48,888 nucleotides of DNA from a bacterium (GTDB lineage: Bacteria; Actinomycetota; Coriobacteriia; Coriobacteriales; CADBOM01), in NCBI GenBank assembly GCA_024698685.1, contig JAILQZ010000087.1, forward strand, positions 1 to 48,888, read 5' to 3'. A model generated the notes under the pieces. It had not been told where the DNA came from. It was given only the letters and a program-made list of their open reading frames with translations, and ran no database searches. The translations under genes and the position numbers were made by a program. Positions 35,658-48,508 of the stretch are shown here, piece by piece (positions within the stretch are counted from its first letter, which is position 1; each line of letters opens with the position of its first letter).

Positions 35658-36569
35658 ATGGATTCGATAGCGCTTCTCATAGCCATCACCTGCGTGACGG
35701 GAATCGGCAGCGGCGTCATCGGCGCCTCTGTCGCCTCCGCGTTCAATCTCGACTCCAATCGCCTCATGAGCATGGTTATCAGCTTCGCAGCCGGACTCAT
35801 GCTCGCCATCATCTGCTTCGATTTCATACCCGATGCTCTGGAGGCCGGCGAGGGCGCTGGCCACGCGCTGCTGATCGTCGGAACGATTGCGCTGGGCGTC
35901 ATCGTGGTCGCCGCGCTCAACAAGATCATGGACTCGCGCATGCAGAAGAAGATCCACTGCTGCACCATCGACGACCCCAATCTCGCGCAGGTCATCGACG
36001 AGCGCACCCGCAGCGAGCATCTCAAGCTGCACGAGCAGGCAGAGAGCCATTCGGCGCATGCCGATGGCGGCTTGCATGACGGACACGGCATGGTCTACGA
36101 GGGCCAGAGCAGGTCTACGCTCCTGCTCGCCGGATGGGTCATGGCCGTGGCGATCGCGCTGCACAACCTGCCCGCGGGAATGAGCATCGGCGCCTCCTTC
36201 TCCATCCCCAGCATGGCCATGGTAAAGTCCGGCATCGTCATCGCGGTTCTCATCGGCATCCACAGCATCCCCGAGGCGATGGCTATGGCGGTGCCCTTCC
36301 GCTACGCGGGACTCTCCAGGGCAAAGACGATCGCGATCGCTGCGCTTGTCGGCGCGATGGTCGTCGTCGGCGCGGTCATCGGGTTCGTGCTCGGCGAGAT
36401 CGGCGAAACCTGGTTCGCGCTGTGCCTCGCATTCGCCAGCGGCTCGATGCTCTACGTCCTCTTCGGCGAGATGCTCCCGGAGGCGATTCTGCTATTCCAC
36501 TCCAAGAAGCCCGCACTTGCCGTCATTGGCGGTATACTCGTTGGGTTGATCCTGATAGTGATTCTCTGA
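35658..36569 (+). CDS. ZIP family metal transporter
   Basis: Polytopic; WVMAVAIALHNLPAGMSIGASF and VLIGIHSIPEAMAMAVPFRYAG motifs; His-bearing loop. Confidence 0.88.
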   Translation: MDSIALLIAITCVTGIGSGVIGASVASAFNLDSNRLMSMVISFAAGLMLAIICFDFIPDALEAGEGAGHALLIVGTIALGVIVVAALNKIMDSRMQKKIHCCTIDDPNLAQVIDERTRSEHLKLHEQAESHSAHADGGLHDGHGMVYEGQSRSTLLLAGWVMAVAIALHNLPAGMSIGASFSIPSMAMVKSGIVIAVLIGIHSIPEAMAMAVPFRYAGLSRAKTIAIAALVGAMVVVGAVIGFVLGEIGETWFALCLAFASGSMLYVLFGEMLPEAILLFHSKKPALAVIGGILVGLILIVIL

Positions 36570-36583
36570 CGCTAGGAGCTCCC

Positions 36584-37420
36584 ATGGATTCCGAACTGCT
36601 CTCAGGCCTAGGCATTCCCACCTCCGGCGCTGGCGTGAAAAGCGGCGTGCAGCTCACCCAGCCGATTATCGTCGATGAGATCGGCGAAGCCGAAGCGCAG
36701 CGCATATCCTCGCTGGTCAAGGAGCAGATCAGGGCCGCATTCGAAGCCCATGGCGAGGTTGTCGTGGCCTTTTCCGGCGGCGTGGATTCGACATTGCTCG
36801 CCAAGCTCGCCCGAGAGGAGCTCTCCGATGCCAAGGAGAATCTGCATGTGGTGCTCGCAGTCTCTCCCCTTCTCAGCATGCGCGGTCTGAACGAGGCTTC
36901 GAACCTCTCGAGACAGTTCGAGCTAGGCATGAAGATCGTCAGCCATCCCGGCTGGAAGCTGCCCGAGGTGCGCGCCAACGAGAAGCTGCGCTGTTACCAC
37001 TGCAAGAACGCCCTATTCGAAGCTATAGAGGAGAAGTACCCCGGAGCGGTCATCCTCGAAGGTTCGAACGTCGACGACATCAACGATGACAGGCCGGGCT
37101 TCGCGGCTGTCCAGGGGCACGGGGTCCTCTCCCCCTTCCTGCAGGCTGGCATCGGCAAGCTGCAGATCCGTCAGCTTTCCCTGCATCTCGGACTTCCGAA
37201 CGCGCTCTACGCCTCCGATTCCTGCATGGCCACGCGCTTCGAGTTCGGTCATTCCCTGAAGACGCAGGAGATGAACGACATCGAAACCAAGGAGAACAAG
37301 CTGCGTGAGAGCGTTCTCAAGCGCCGCGAGAAGGAGAACTACGTCAACGCGGTCGAGCCCAAGGTCAGAATCCGCGTGAAGAGGGGCAGCGAGGTCACGG
37401 AGGTTACCGAGTCTCTGTGA
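36584..37420 (+). CDS. larE: LarE-like ATP-dependent sulfur transferase
   Basis: VVVAFSGGVDSTLLAKLA PP-loop, KLRCYHCKNALF, EGSNVDDINDDRPG, SDSCMATRF. Confidence 0.9.
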   Translation: MDSELLSGLGIPTSGAGVKSGVQLTQPIIVDEIGEAEAQRISSLVKEQIRAAFEAHGEVVVAFSGGVDSTLLAKLAREELSDAKENLHVVLAVSPLLSMRGLNEASNLSRQFELGMKIVSHPGWKLPEVRANEKLRCYHCKNALFEAIEEKYPGAVILEGSNVDDINDDRPGFAAVQGHGVLSPFLQAGIGKLQIRQLSLHLGLPNALYASDSCMATRFEFGHSLKTQEMNDIETKENKLRESVLKRREKENYVNAVEPKVRIRVKRGSEVTEVTESL

Positions 37421-43203: not shown

Positions 43204-43776
43204 CTAGCCGATTTCGCCTCCACCGGGTTCGCGCAGCTCTCCACCAGCGCAAACCTCCAAGCCGCTGTCCTTCTCGATGATCCCCTCGACACCGTTTTCC
43301 AGCAGGATCGACAGCACCGTTTGGATCGCGAGGGGAAGCGCCGACTCCACAGACTCGCTAAGCCCGATCTCGAACTCGGCTGGCGAGATGTCCTCGACCT
43401 GCACTCCGACGCAGATTCCCTCGACCTCGTAACCGAGCATCTTGGCCGCATCGCGCACATCGGAGAAGCGCATATCATGGGCGGAGTGGATAACGTGGCT
43501 CCTGTCGATGTCATCGGGGCTGAACCGGAAGACCGTTCCCGCAGGCTCGCCCGTTCCATCGACGGCATCGACCACAACGAGCAGGTCGTTCTCCTCGAAT
43601 TCGGGCAAAAGGGCCAGCCCCATGCAGGCGCAGTCCTCCACGCTCACGTTCTCGGGAAACTCGTAGCGCTCGATCATCCTCTTGGCGATGGCGGGCCCAA
43701 CGCCCTCATCGGCCAGCAGGATGTTGCCTATGCATATGACGCAGATTCTCTTCACTCGCACTCCATCGCGTTGCAA
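43204..43776 (-). CDS. hyaD: hydrogenase maturation protease (HyaD/HybD family)
   Basis: VICIGNILLADEGVGPAIAKRM, LVVVDAVDGTGEPAGT, SAHDMRFSDV. GTG at 43755 is an alternative start. Confidence 0.88.
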   Translation of the reverse strand: MQRDGVRVKRICVICIGNILLADEGVGPAIAKRMIERYEFPENVSVEDCACMGLALLPEFEENDLLVVVDAVDGTGEPAGTVFRFSPDDIDRSHVIHSAHDMRFSDVRDAAKMLGYEVEGICVGVQVEDISPAEFEIGLSESVESALPLAIQTVLSILLENGVEGIIEKDSGLEVCAGGELREPGGGEIG

Positions 43777-43904: not shown

Positions 43905-44621
43905 CTAGTTGAAGTAGCGCTTTGCGTCTGGATCGCTGGGATCGAGATCCTCTCCGATGATCTCCTTGGTCTCCGGATCCATGATCATTCCGCCATGCTC
44001 CTTATGCTTGAACATGATCGCAACCTGCGCAGGACCCTCGATGAGGGCGAGATACATATGCAGGCCGGTGAAGATGATGAAGACCCACATCATGAAGAAG
44101 TGGATGATCCTCACGTTCATGATTCCGCCAACGAGGTTGGTGAACCAAACGAAGATGCCCCAGTCGCAGGTGGGTCCCCAGAGCGCAAAGCCGGTGAAGC
44201 CCATGAAGAGAAGCAGGAACGGAATCCCCGCATAGGAGAGCTTTTGCGGCGAACCGTACTTGGTGCCCTTGGGATGGTCCTTCTTAAGGAAGAGGTAGTA
44301 CTTGATCCAGGGAAGGAACTGATGCTTGTTGCCCTTGCTGGGCAGATAGTTCTTGATGTCCCTGTCGAGGCCCTCGCGGGTTCCGCCATACTGGGCCGAC
44401 TTGATGAAGAAGGCCATGATCACCCTTGCGAAGAGGTTAATCAGGATGACGAACGCGCAGACCATGTGCAATCCGCGACAAAGGCCCATGATCGACGGAA
44501 TCGCGGGGTAATGGATGAAGAGGCCCGAGATGATCAGGCAGAACATGCAGATAGCATTGATCCAGTGCGTGATCACGAATGGAAGCGGGTGAGCCTCTTT
44601 GTAATGTGCGAGATGCGCCAT
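43905..44621 (-). CDS. cytochrome b/b6-type hydrogenase subunit
   Basis: FVITHWINAICMFCLIISGLFIH, LHMVCAFVILINLF, HFFMMWVFIIFTGLHMYLAL heme-binding His pattern; abuts the large subunit gene. Confidence 0.88.
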   Translation of the reverse strand: MAHLAHYKEAHPLPFVITHWINAICMFCLIISGLFIHYPAIPSIMGLCRGLHMVCAFVILINLFARVIMAFFIKSAQYGGTREGLDRDIKNYLPSKGNKHQFLPWIKYYLFLKKDHPKGTKYGSPQKLSYAGIPFLLLFMGFTGFALWGPTCDWGIFVWFTNLVGGIMNVRIIHFFMMWVFIIFTGLHMYLALIEGPAQVAIMFKHKEHGGMIMDPETKEIIGEDLDPSDPDAKRYFN

Positions 44622-46256
44622 TTACTTCACCCCCCAAGGATTGGTAACTACTTCGAAGTGCTTGCCAGTGGCGGGCTCGTTGACGTGAACCGCGCAAGCC
44701 ACGCACGGATCGAAACTGTGGACTACCCTCAGCGCGTTGATCGGCTTCTCGACATCATCGACCGGGCATCCGATGAGCGCCTGCTCCATCGGGCCCTTGA
44801 CGCCGTCGGCATCCCTCGGGGAGATGTTCCAGGTGGTGGGGATGATGATCTGATAGTCCTGGATCTCGTTGTTCTTGATGCGCTCGAAGTGATAGAGGGC
44901 ACCTCGCGGAGCCTCCCACATTCCAGCTCCCTCGCCCGTCTCATGAGCGGGCTCGGTGAAGTACTTGGTGCTCGGATCCGCAGCGGCCTTGCCCAACTCG
45001 GTGAGCCACTCGACCTCGAGGTTGGCGATGTAGAGGCACTCAAGATTGCGGGCCACGATGCGGCCGAGGACCGATTCGAGGTCGTGGATGCCAACGCCAA
45101 GCGTCTTGGTGGTGCTGTCGATGAGCTTGACGATCTCGGGAACACCCCTCATGTAGGCGACGAGCATACGGGAAAGCGGACCGGCCTCATAGGGCTTGCC
45201 GTCGTAGCGCGGAGCCTTGCACCACGTGTACTTGCCCTCGAGATCCCTTCCGCCCTCGGGGAACTCGGGGTCGGTGAGGCCATGGCGCGGGTTGAGGTTG
45301 GACTCTGTCTTGTAGTAGCTATGGCCGGTGTACTCGGTGATGAGCGACTCATCGACGTCGTGCAGCTTGAACTTGCCGTCGATGACTCCAGCGGGGAGAT
45401 ACCTCTCGTTGGGCTTCTGCGATGGGCTGTTGAAGACGCCCCATGCAGCGTAGCGACCCGGGCCCTTGCCGAAGCCGAGAGCCTCGGTGTAGTAGGGGCC
45501 GATCGCCAGAGTGTCAGGGATGAGGGTGTTGGCCACCCAGTCGCGAATCTCGATGGCGCGCATCAGCGCATCGTCGATCTTCTCCACCGTAGGAACGTAG
45601 GTGGTTCCGCCGGGGATGGAGGTCATGATGTGCGGCATCTTTCCGCCGAGGAGGCCGGAGATCTGCGACGCCTTGGCCTGATACTGCAGAGCCTCGAGAT
45701 AATGGGCCGTTGCGATGAGGTCGAGCTCGGGGGGCAGGTTGAAGGTGTCCCTCGAGAACCAGTTGCCGGAGAAGATCGAGAGCTGCCCGTTCTTGATGAA
45801 CGACTCGAGATGCTTCTTGACGGCCGCGAAGTCGGAGTTGCCGGTTCCCGCAGCATTTGCGAGATCGTAGGTATCCGCAACGTTCGCGCTCAGCGCGTTG
45901 GTGGGATCGACGTAGTCGAGTCCGGTGAGATTGTAGAACCACAGGATGTGCGAGTGCAGGAACTGCGAGCCCTCGAGGATGTTGCGGACGAGCCTCGCGC
46001 CGTTCTCCAGCGTGATGCCGTAGGCGCCCTCGCCTGCGAAGCAGGCTGCGTGCGCATGGGAGATCGGGCAGACGCCGCAGATGCGCTGCGCGATCATCGC
46101 TGCATCTGCCGGCTCGCGATTCTGAAGGATGAGCTCCATGCCGCGGAAGAGGCCACCGGTTACCCAAGCATCGGTTACCTTGCCGCCGGAAACCTCCATC
46201 TCAACCCTGAGATGGCCCTCGATTCTGGATACAGGGTCGATGACTGATCTGGCCAT
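44622..46256 (-). CDS. [NiFe] hydrogenase large subunit
   Basis: DPVSRIEGHLRVEMEV, RICGVCPISHAHA, C-terminal SFDPCVACAVH followed by a cleavable-type extension. Confidence 0.96.
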   Translation of the reverse strand: MARSVIDPVSRIEGHLRVEMEVSGGKVTDAWVTGGLFRGMELILQNREPADAAMIAQRICGVCPISHAHAACFAGEGAYGITLENGARLVRNILEGSQFLHSHILWFYNLTGLDYVDPTNALSANVADTYDLANAAGTGNSDFAAVKKHLESFIKNGQLSIFSGNWFSRDTFNLPPELDLIATAHYLEALQYQAKASQISGLLGGKMPHIMTSIPGGTTYVPTVEKIDDALMRAIEIRDWVANTLIPDTLAIGPYYTEALGFGKGPGRYAAWGVFNSPSQKPNERYLPAGVIDGKFKLHDVDESLITEYTGHSYYKTESNLNPRHGLTDPEFPEGGRDLEGKYTWCKAPRYDGKPYEAGPLSRMLVAYMRGVPEIVKLIDSTTKTLGVGIHDLESVLGRIVARNLECLYIANLEVEWLTELGKAAADPSTKYFTEPAHETGEGAGMWEAPRGALYHFERIKNNEIQDYQIIIPTTWNISPRDADGVKGPMEQALIGCPVDDVEKPINALRVVHSFDPCVACAVHVNEPATGKHFEVVTNPWGVK

Positions 46257-47473
46257 TACTCATCGCCTCCCTCTTGGACATCCTCGACAACCTCTGGCGC
46301 CTCGGCTGCCTTGGGCTGCTTCTTGCTCCAGTCGCTCTCGGTCTCGATCGGCGCGCCGCCCTTGGTGCGTCCGGCGAACTTCATGCCGAAGCCGTGAGCT
46401 GCGATCGCCACGCCCGCGATGCCGGTTACTGCAATCGCCAGGGTGGTGGGCTGGAAGTTGGTGCTTCCGACGTGCATGTCATGGAAACGCTGCAGGAACG
46501 GAGCGTTGTTGTTGACCCAGTTGTTCCTGCTGGAGCGCGGATTGCAGGATGCGCATCCGATGCAGGGCGCTCCGGCCTCGACGCACCAGCTGGCCTTGCC
46601 GTTCCAGCGAACCACCGGGCAGTTGGAGTAGGTCTGCGGACCCTTGCATCCCATCGCGTAGAGGCAATAGCCCTTGCGCTCCTCGTCCGAGCCGAACTCG
46701 TAGACGAACTCGCCGTTCTCGAAGTGGCCGCGCCTCGGGCAGTTCTCATGGATGAGCTGGCCGAACGAGAGCTCGGGCTCGTTGTTCGAGTTGAGCTTTG
46801 GCAGCTGCCCGGTGAGGACGAAGTTCATGACGACCTCGACGATGTGCTCCGGATTGACCGGACACGACGGAAGGTTGATGACCGGCGTTGCGATGCCGTT
46901 TTGCTTGAGGAACTTCTGGACGCCCATCGCACCTGCGGGATTGGGATGCGCTGCGCACCATCCGCCATCGACCGCGCAAGAGCCTGCGGAGATCACCGCG
47001 AGCGCATTGCTGGCAGCGTGGATGAGGGCATCGGTGCCCTTCTCGTCGGCAACCATGAGCGCGTTGCCATCCCAACCGGTCATGACAGCGCCCTCGTAGA
47101 TGAGGATGTATCCGCCGGCTTCGATCGTCTCCTCCTTGGCCTTCTCGAGAGAGTGGCCCGCCGCAGCGGAGAGCGTCTCCGAGTAGTTAAGGGAGAGATA
47201 GTCCAAAACCAAGGTAGCCACATCTGGCTCTACGGCCTGCGCCAGGGACTCGGTGCAGCCCGAACAGGATCCTGCCTCGATCCAGACAACCGGAATCAGC
47301 TTGCCGGTTGCGGAACCGATCTCGAGCGCTTCGGCCACCTTCGGCCCCATCGTGGATGAGAGCCCGATGGCTGCGGCGACTCCACCGCAGAATTTGAGGA
47401 ATGTGCGTCGCGAGACACCCTTGCTGGCAAGGTAGCTAGCAAGCCCCGCTTCGCGGACCTCCGGCATTACCAT
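46256..47473 (-). CDS. [NiFe] hydrogenase small subunit with Tat signal and C-terminal anchor
   Basis: SRRTFLKFCGG Tat motif, EAGSCSGCTESLAQ, Fe-S cysteines GYCLYAMGCKGPQTYSNCP and GCASC, C-terminal TM; TAATG overlap with the large subunit. Confidence 0.95.
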   Translation of the reverse strand: MVMPEVREAGLASYLASKGVSRRTFLKFCGGVAAAIGLSSTMGPKVAEALEIGSATGKLIPVVWIEAGSCSGCTESLAQAVEPDVATLVLDYLSLNYSETLSAAAGHSLEKAKEETIEAGGYILIYEGAVMTGWDGNALMVADEKGTDALIHAASNALAVISAGSCAVDGGWCAAHPNPAGAMGVQKFLKQNGIATPVINLPSCPVNPEHIVEVVMNFVLTGQLPKLNSNNEPELSFGQLIHENCPRRGHFENGEFVYEFGSDEERKGYCLYAMGCKGPQTYSNCPVVRWNGKASWCVEAGAPCIGCASCNPRSSRNNWVNNNAPFLQRFHDMHVGSTNFQPTTLAIAVTGIAGVAIAAHGFGMKFAGRTKGGAPIETESDWSKKQPKAAEAPEVVEDVQEGGDE

Positions 47474-47692
47474 TCGTTTACCTCCTCAACTCAAAAAGAT
47501 GCAACGCCTGCTTCCTCAGCGTGTCGCATTACCATCGACTGAGCATCTTTTCCCTTCATAACACCGCAATGCTTGAAAATGCGAGCAACAACGATGAACT
47601 ATTTGCAATAATATGCGTTAGCAAAACGTTGCTTCTGCACGCAAAAAAAGCACAGTCGGCGACAAGGTATATTCTATCTGCAGACGCAGCTT

Positions 47693-47722
47693 TTGAGTAA
47701 CCCGTGAAGCACTTGATGTAAT
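47693..47722 (+). promoter_or_regulatory. predicted promoter for larB (TTGAGT-N18-TGTAAT), -10 inside a TAATG triplication
   Basis: -35-like TTGAGT at 47693-47698, -10-like TGTAAT at 47717-47722. Confidence 0.35.
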
Positions 47723-47739
47723 GTAATGTAATGAACCCG

Positions 47740-47773
47740 AAAGTGTTACAAAACTGCAGGAAAATAACACTTT
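47740..47773 (+). promoter_or_regulatory. NikR-like inverted repeat upstream of larB
   Basis: AAAGTGTTA-N16-TAACACTTT, perfect 9-bp arms; read as GTGTTAC-N14-aTAACAC, close to a remembered NikR motif. Confidence 0.55.
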
Positions 47774-47797: not shown

Positions 47798-48508
47798 ATG
47801 GAGCTTCAGGAATACGCAAATCTGGACTATGACAGAGAGCGAAGATGCGGCTTTCCCGAGGTGATCTTCGGGGAGGGAAAAACCGCCGAGCAGATCTGCG
47901 AAATAGCCTCTGCGCTGCTGAAACGCCATGATCTTGTGCTCGCCACGCGGGTGAGCGATGAGAAGGCTGCAGAGGTGCTGGCGCAAATCGATGACGCGAT
48001 CTACATGCCAATTCCTAGGCTGCTCTTCGTCGACAGGCGCGAGAACCCGATCCGCACCAACAACGTCAACGAGGCGCTGACGACGGTGACGCAATCCCGC
48101 ACCACGGGGAACATCATCGTGTGCTGTGCGGGGACAAGCGACCTCCCAGTGGCCCAGGAGGCGGCGATGACCGCATGCCTGATGGGCTCGCACGTCACGC
48201 TGCTCACCGACATCGGTGTGGCCGGGGTTCACAGGACGTTGGCGCACGAGGACGAGCTCAAGAGCGCTCGCGTGATCGTCGCCGTAGCGGGCATGGAGGG
48301 CGCGCTCCCCTCGTTGATCGCGGGGCTGGTAGGCGTGCCGGTTGTCGCGGTGCCCACCAGCGTCGGATACGGGGCGAGCTTCGGGGGAATCTCCGCTTTG
48401 CTCTCCATGATGAACAGCTGCGCCGGCGGGGTCAGCGTTGTCAACATCGACAACGGCTTCGGCGCAGGGCAGGTTGCTCACAGGATCAATTCACCAAGCT
48501 GGCTATAG
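47798..48508 (+). CDS. larB: nickel pincer cofactor biosynthesis protein LarB
   Basis: DYDRERRCGFPEVIFGEGKTAEQI, CCAGTSDLPVAQEAA, VAVAGMEGALPSLIAGL, PTSVGYGASFGGISALLSMMNSC. Confidence 0.93.
   Translation: MELQEYANLDYDRERRCGFPEVIFGEGKTAEQICEIASALLKRHDLVLATRVSDEKAAEVLAQIDDAIYMPIPRLLFVDRRENPIRTNNVNEALTTVTQSRTTGNIIVCCAGTSDLPVAQEAAMTACLMGSHVTLLTDIGVAGVHRTLAHEDELKSARVIVAVAGMEGALPSLIAGLVGVPVVAVPTSVGYGASFGGISALLSMMNSCAGGVSVVNIDNGFGAGQVAHRINSPSWL

Follow-up and report, generated by a model that had tools for sequence, protein, structure and literature searches.

The closest described counterpart of the operator considered here is the NikR signal of deltaproteobacteria (Geobacter and Desulfovibrio), a 27-28 bp inverted repeat with the consensus GTGTTAC-[N13/14]-GTAACAC and 13-14 bp between its 7-bp arms (PMC545781). 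That paper, from 2004, predicts that NikR controls nikMNQO transporters as well as a hydrogenase, the latter an iron-only enzyme. The E. coli NikR operator reads GTATGA-N16-TCATAC (PMC7055735). Both forms had been given correctly in an earlier, sequence-only reading of the DNA described below. In H. pylori, NikR activates some promoters and represses others, and a square-planar His3Cys nickel site is conserved among NikR homologues (PMC9860126).

A dyad of this kind lies between larB and a divergent [NiFe] hydrogenase operon in the window, by which we mean the whole 48,888-nucleotide stretch of Coriobacteriales DNA that was analyzed. It shares half-sites, arm length, and spacing with the deltaproteobacterial signal, and a hydrogenase is a predicted target of both. 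However, the main predicted targets here are a [NiFe] hydrogenase operon and nikR-hyp in an actinobacterial order, and the nickel site is missing from the corresponding NikR. The 6-N16-6 geometry is that of the E. coli operator, whereas the half-site sequence and the target genes differ, and E. coli NikR keeps its ligands H76, H87, H89, and C95. H. pylori NikR belongs to the same protein family and has the same hinge Trp, but its operators are loosely conserved and its nickel ligands are intact. As judged from its letters, the window dyad is an ordinary operator of a known kind, the NikR type. It very probably serves the single NikR-family ribbon-helix-helix protein of the genome, with the divergent [NiFe] hydrogenase operon as its conserved target.

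The dyad and its neighborhood

In the dyad (AAAGTGTTACAAAACTGCAGGAAAATAACACTTT), two perfectly matched 9-bp inverted arms flank a 16-bp spacer. The dyad extends from 58 bp to 24 bp before the larB ATG, exactly where the sequence-only reading had placed it. The end of its core is 269 bp upstream of the start of the hydrogenase small-subunit gene on the other side (Table 1). Perfect 9-bp inverted repeats are common in the window (22 with gaps of 3-30; for a 16-bp gap the expected number is 0.37), so symmetry by itself is weak evidence. The pattern GTGTTA-N12..20-TAACAC occurs once in the window and in none of 100 shuffles, and GTGTTA-N14..18-TAACAC occurs twice in the whole 1.78-Mb assembly, where a reversed-pattern control gives no hit. 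The dyad matches the GTGTTAC-N14-GTAACAC consensus at 13 of 14 positions. With two mismatches allowed, the genome-wide count (7) is lower than that of the control (16), and it thus provides no support for additional weak sites in the genome.

Table 1. Predicted operator, candidate promoter elements, and adjacent genes in the window
Feature	Position	Strand	Evidence or remark
NikR-type operator (predicted)	47740..47773	.	AAAGTGTTA-N16-TAACACTTT; conserved at [NiFe] hydrogenase genes across the order
Dyad core GTGTTA-N16-TAACAC	47743-47770		
Candidate -10 element TAGAAT, hydrogenase promoter	47671..47676	-	+66 from dyad; near the -10-like positions of relatives
Candidate larB promoter TTGAGT-N18-TGTAAT	47693..47722	+	Sequence inspection; tentative
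[NiFe] hydrogenase small subunit, Tat signal	46256..47473	-	Pfam PF14720/PF01058, NCBIfam hydA
[NiFe] hydrogenase large subunit	44622..46256	-	Pfam PF00374
Hydrogenase cytochrome b subunit	43905..44621	-	Pfam PF01292
Hydrogenase maturation protease	43204..43776	-	Pfam PF01750
larB, nickel-pincer cofactor biosynthesis; possible secondary target	47798..48508	+	NCBIfam NF033503 LarB, 266.9 bits
larC 5' part, cut by contig end	48530..48886	+	Pfam PF01969 Ni_insertion

Five T residues directly follow the second arm, and the sequence-only reading had for this reason offered a larB leader terminator or attenuator as an alternative. We give this idea virtually no credence. The putative hairpin would have an A-T rich stem and a 16-nt loop that fold weakly (-7.2 kcal/mol, z -1.36), no terminator-like site was found, and what is present is not a G+C-rich hairpin with a U tract. 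In addition, the spacer within the hairpin is not conserved, and the copies of the dyad upstream of hydrogenase genes in relatives mostly lie 80-320 bp from the gene.

The hydrogenase large subunit has both nickel-binding active-site Cys motifs intact (RICGVCPISH and DPCVACAVH). Besides larB and larC, the window carries a larE-like gene (36134-37420), and no LarA (PF09861) is found in this 94% complete genome. Directly before the larE-like gene is a gene for a ZIP-family metal transporter (35658-36569). Since CbiM/NikM and NicO have no match in this genome, the ZIP-family protein could be a nickel importer.

A single NikR homologue and a second dyad

The source genome (1.78 Mb, 94% complete) has one NikR_C gene above the cut-off (G000:C87:1018-1248; PF08753, 69.8 bits). 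The 139-aa product combines a ribbon-helix-helix DNA-binding domain with NikR_C and scores 144 bits against the NikR equivalog model NCBIfam NF003381 (cut-off 105). Its best match among solved structures is to PDB 2bj1 and others (E 5e-32, residues 3-137); we take the 2bj1 protein to be that of Pyrococcus horikoshii. A scan of genome contigs with the NikR protein as query returned a single sister record, Coriobacteriales RGIG5709 from sheep duodenum. A second, canonical NikR could be encoded in the remaining 6% of the genome.

The nikR gene is part of an apparent operon on contig C87 that consists of an ~82-residue ORF, nikR, hypF, hypC, hypD, and hypE. Directly before this operon, with a thioredoxin gene on the far side, is a second exact GTGTTA-N16-TAACAC with the same 16-bp spacer, and this copy and the one in the larB/hydrogenase region are the only two in the genome. 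In the sister species (G001), the arms of the nikR-hyp dyad and at least 50 preceding bases are identical, and the three differences all fall in the spacer. The arrangement recurs in a genome of a different, more distant family (G039), where trxA, a comparable small ORF, nikR, and hypF follow the dyad. The sequence-only reading had proposed a search for a nikR gene and for further dyads near nickel genes, and the genome supplies one of each. Its assignment of the dyad to NikR gains support from this second copy, from the conserved dyads that members of the order carry at hydrogenase and nikMQO genes, and from the published consensus (PMC545781).

Two minor observations concern the nikR locus. 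The ~82-residue ORF that precedes nikR (MCNNGVNTNQ..., L023 471-719) resembles the ORF in the same place in G039 (MCTNGINASQ...); Pfam has no match for either of them, nor NCBIfam for the first. In many genomes of family f2, a variant dyad, ATGTTAC-N14-TTCACAC, occurs ~360-570 bp upstream of nikR (e.g., L083, L087, and L092).

The conserved target

Upstream regions of larB and of the [NiFe] hydrogenase small-subunit gene were scored against GTGTTAC-N14-GTAACAC, and a dyad was counted at 11 or more matches out of 14. It is present upstream of larB in only 2 of 30 genomes. By comparison, 46 of 71 hydrogenase upstream regions across the order carry it (shuffled null ~1.5%), and 36 of 71 still do at 12 or more matches (null 0.2%). 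The difference between the two genes is significant (Fisher p = 4e-8), with the qualification that related genomes are not independent. In family f2, the dyad stands before the hydrogenase in 25 of 27 genomes, at 104-121 bp from the ATG in 23 cases, and hydrogenase upstream regions in several families have it at similar distances. Upstream of the hydrogenase, no dyad is found in the three genomes that have this enzyme and no detected NikR, nor in families f6 and f10, which have both. In genus g19 of f10, 20 of 21 loci instead have the dyad ahead of a CbiM/NikM gene, at a distance of 24-57 bp, and in the one annotated locus CbiQ and ABC ATPase genes follow, which is the make-up of a nikM-Q-O nickel/cobalt transporter.

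On these counts the window dyad is best read as the putative operator of the divergent hydrogenase, with larB as its neighbor. It also sits at larB because the intergenic region is short, and larB, whose ATG is so near, may be co-regulated through the shared site. That proximity (24 bp, versus 269 bp to the hydrogenase start) is what would commend an operator specific to larB and without a role at the hydrogenase. We consider such an operator very improbable, since the only two larB regions with a dyad, those of the window and of G018, are both intergenic regions shared with the hydrogenase, and since hydrogenase regions of several families carry the dyad at comparable positions. Of what the sequence-only reading needed, a NikR-like regulator in the genome is present, whereas conservation of the dyad before larB fails in 28 of 30 genomes; a conserved role as a larB operator is not supported by the comparison of genomes. 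The sister species assembly (59% complete) has no larB or hydrogenase match, so the footprint within the genus is that of the nikR-hyp dyad.

Together these sites predict a NikR regulon for Coriobacteriales, an order of gut bacteria with important hydrogen metabolism, in which a single operator joins nickel import to uptake hydrogenase and Hyp maturation. Nothing relevant on NikR in this order, Eggerthella included, turned up in the literature searched. Exact dyads also occur in relatives with no recognizable nickel gene beside them (e.g., L029, L054, and L058), and these may be due to chance.

Loss of nickel ligands in the NikR of the genus

A gapless alignment of the ligand region to NikRs of known structure places I, R, Y, and C at the positions of E. 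coli H76, H87, H89, and C95, so that only the Cys is kept. Both available species of the genus have I-R-Y-C, whereas the PDB 2bj1 structure has H-H-H-C, as does every one of the 55 NikR loci parsed elsewhere in the class (46 distinct genomes). One further locus outside the parsed set (L084) visibly carries QH, HVH, and NC. The RFSVA DNA-reading beta-strand is unchanged and is the same as in relatives that have the nickel site. The protein is thus a NikR by its family model and is not one by the His3Cys nickel site, and we call it a NikR homologue that would work on NikR operators, rather than a nickel-responsive NikR. A ligand-less NikR is apparently undescribed, and a literature search on the subject returned nothing relevant.

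Because three of the four ligands are lost, direct nickel control of the dyad, as the sequence-only reading had it, is doubtful, and the protein probably occupies its operators without nickel or on another signal. Ordinary nickel-responsive control, with the metal sensed via C95 and other residues, would suit a regulon whose logic is nickel-related (hydrogenase, hyp, and lar genes), a protein that scores above the NF003381 equivalog cut-off, and a hinge Trp that aligns with that of H. pylori NikR. We nevertheless regard it as unlikely, given that I, R, and Y replace the three His in both species while every other parsed locus of the class keeps all four ligands.

An alternative is that this NikR is vestigial and its operators are being lost. 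In its favor, the ligand loss is confined to one genus; in the family's other genus (G002, 89% complete) no NikR was detected, and the 324 bp that could be scored before the hydrogenase contain no dyad. This explanation seems quite unlikely in view of how the gene and its sites are preserved. Only 14 of 264 nucleotides in the NikR C-terminal domain differ between the two species (dN 0.010, dS 0.22), which argues that the ligand-less variant is maintained by purifying selection and is neither decaying nor an assembly error in one genome. The arms of the dyad are perfect at both sites, and the footprint at nikR-hyp is conserved between the species.

On balance we lean toward a rewired NikR, one whose ancestral operators persist at the hydrogenase/lar and nikR-hyp loci and which is under purifying selection but has lost nickel sensing. 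Such a protein could be metal-independent or could respond to a different input; Arg and Tyr now occupy the places of two nickel His. Ligand loss specific to one genus, in combination with operators that are kept, offers a natural experiment: does a metalloregulator hold on to its regulon when its signal changes or goes?

Promoter geometry

In family f2, a -10-like GARAATA is found at +68/69 past the dyad in 14 of 25 genomes, and in f5 a -10-like GATTAT is found at +78-81 in 10 of 16. The center of hydrogenase-side dyads would accordingly fall near -90 to -105, an activator-like position, and that of the window dyad near -92 of the predicted hydrogenase start. At nikM the dyad is near the start codon, which would be a repressor-like position.

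We suggest that NikR, produced from the nikR-hypFCDE operon that bears the only other exact dyad, binds the window dyad. Bound ~90 bp before the predicted hydrogenase start, it would be in a position typical of activators. On the opposite side, the dyad is located between the candidate larB promoter and the larB ATG, perhaps just downstream of the candidate larB start site, and NikR bound there could block or modulate larB expression.

Hydrogenase upstream regions of some relatives contain a second motif 7-8 bp past the dyad at a fixed spacing (e.g., L167, L168, and L141, from G051, G067, and G034). This motif, which is absent in the window, reads CCATTTGCGG in families f2 and f8, and in f5 it reads CCATCTACCTA with CCGCTTGCCGA ~20 bp further on; it looks like the site of another DNA-binding protein.
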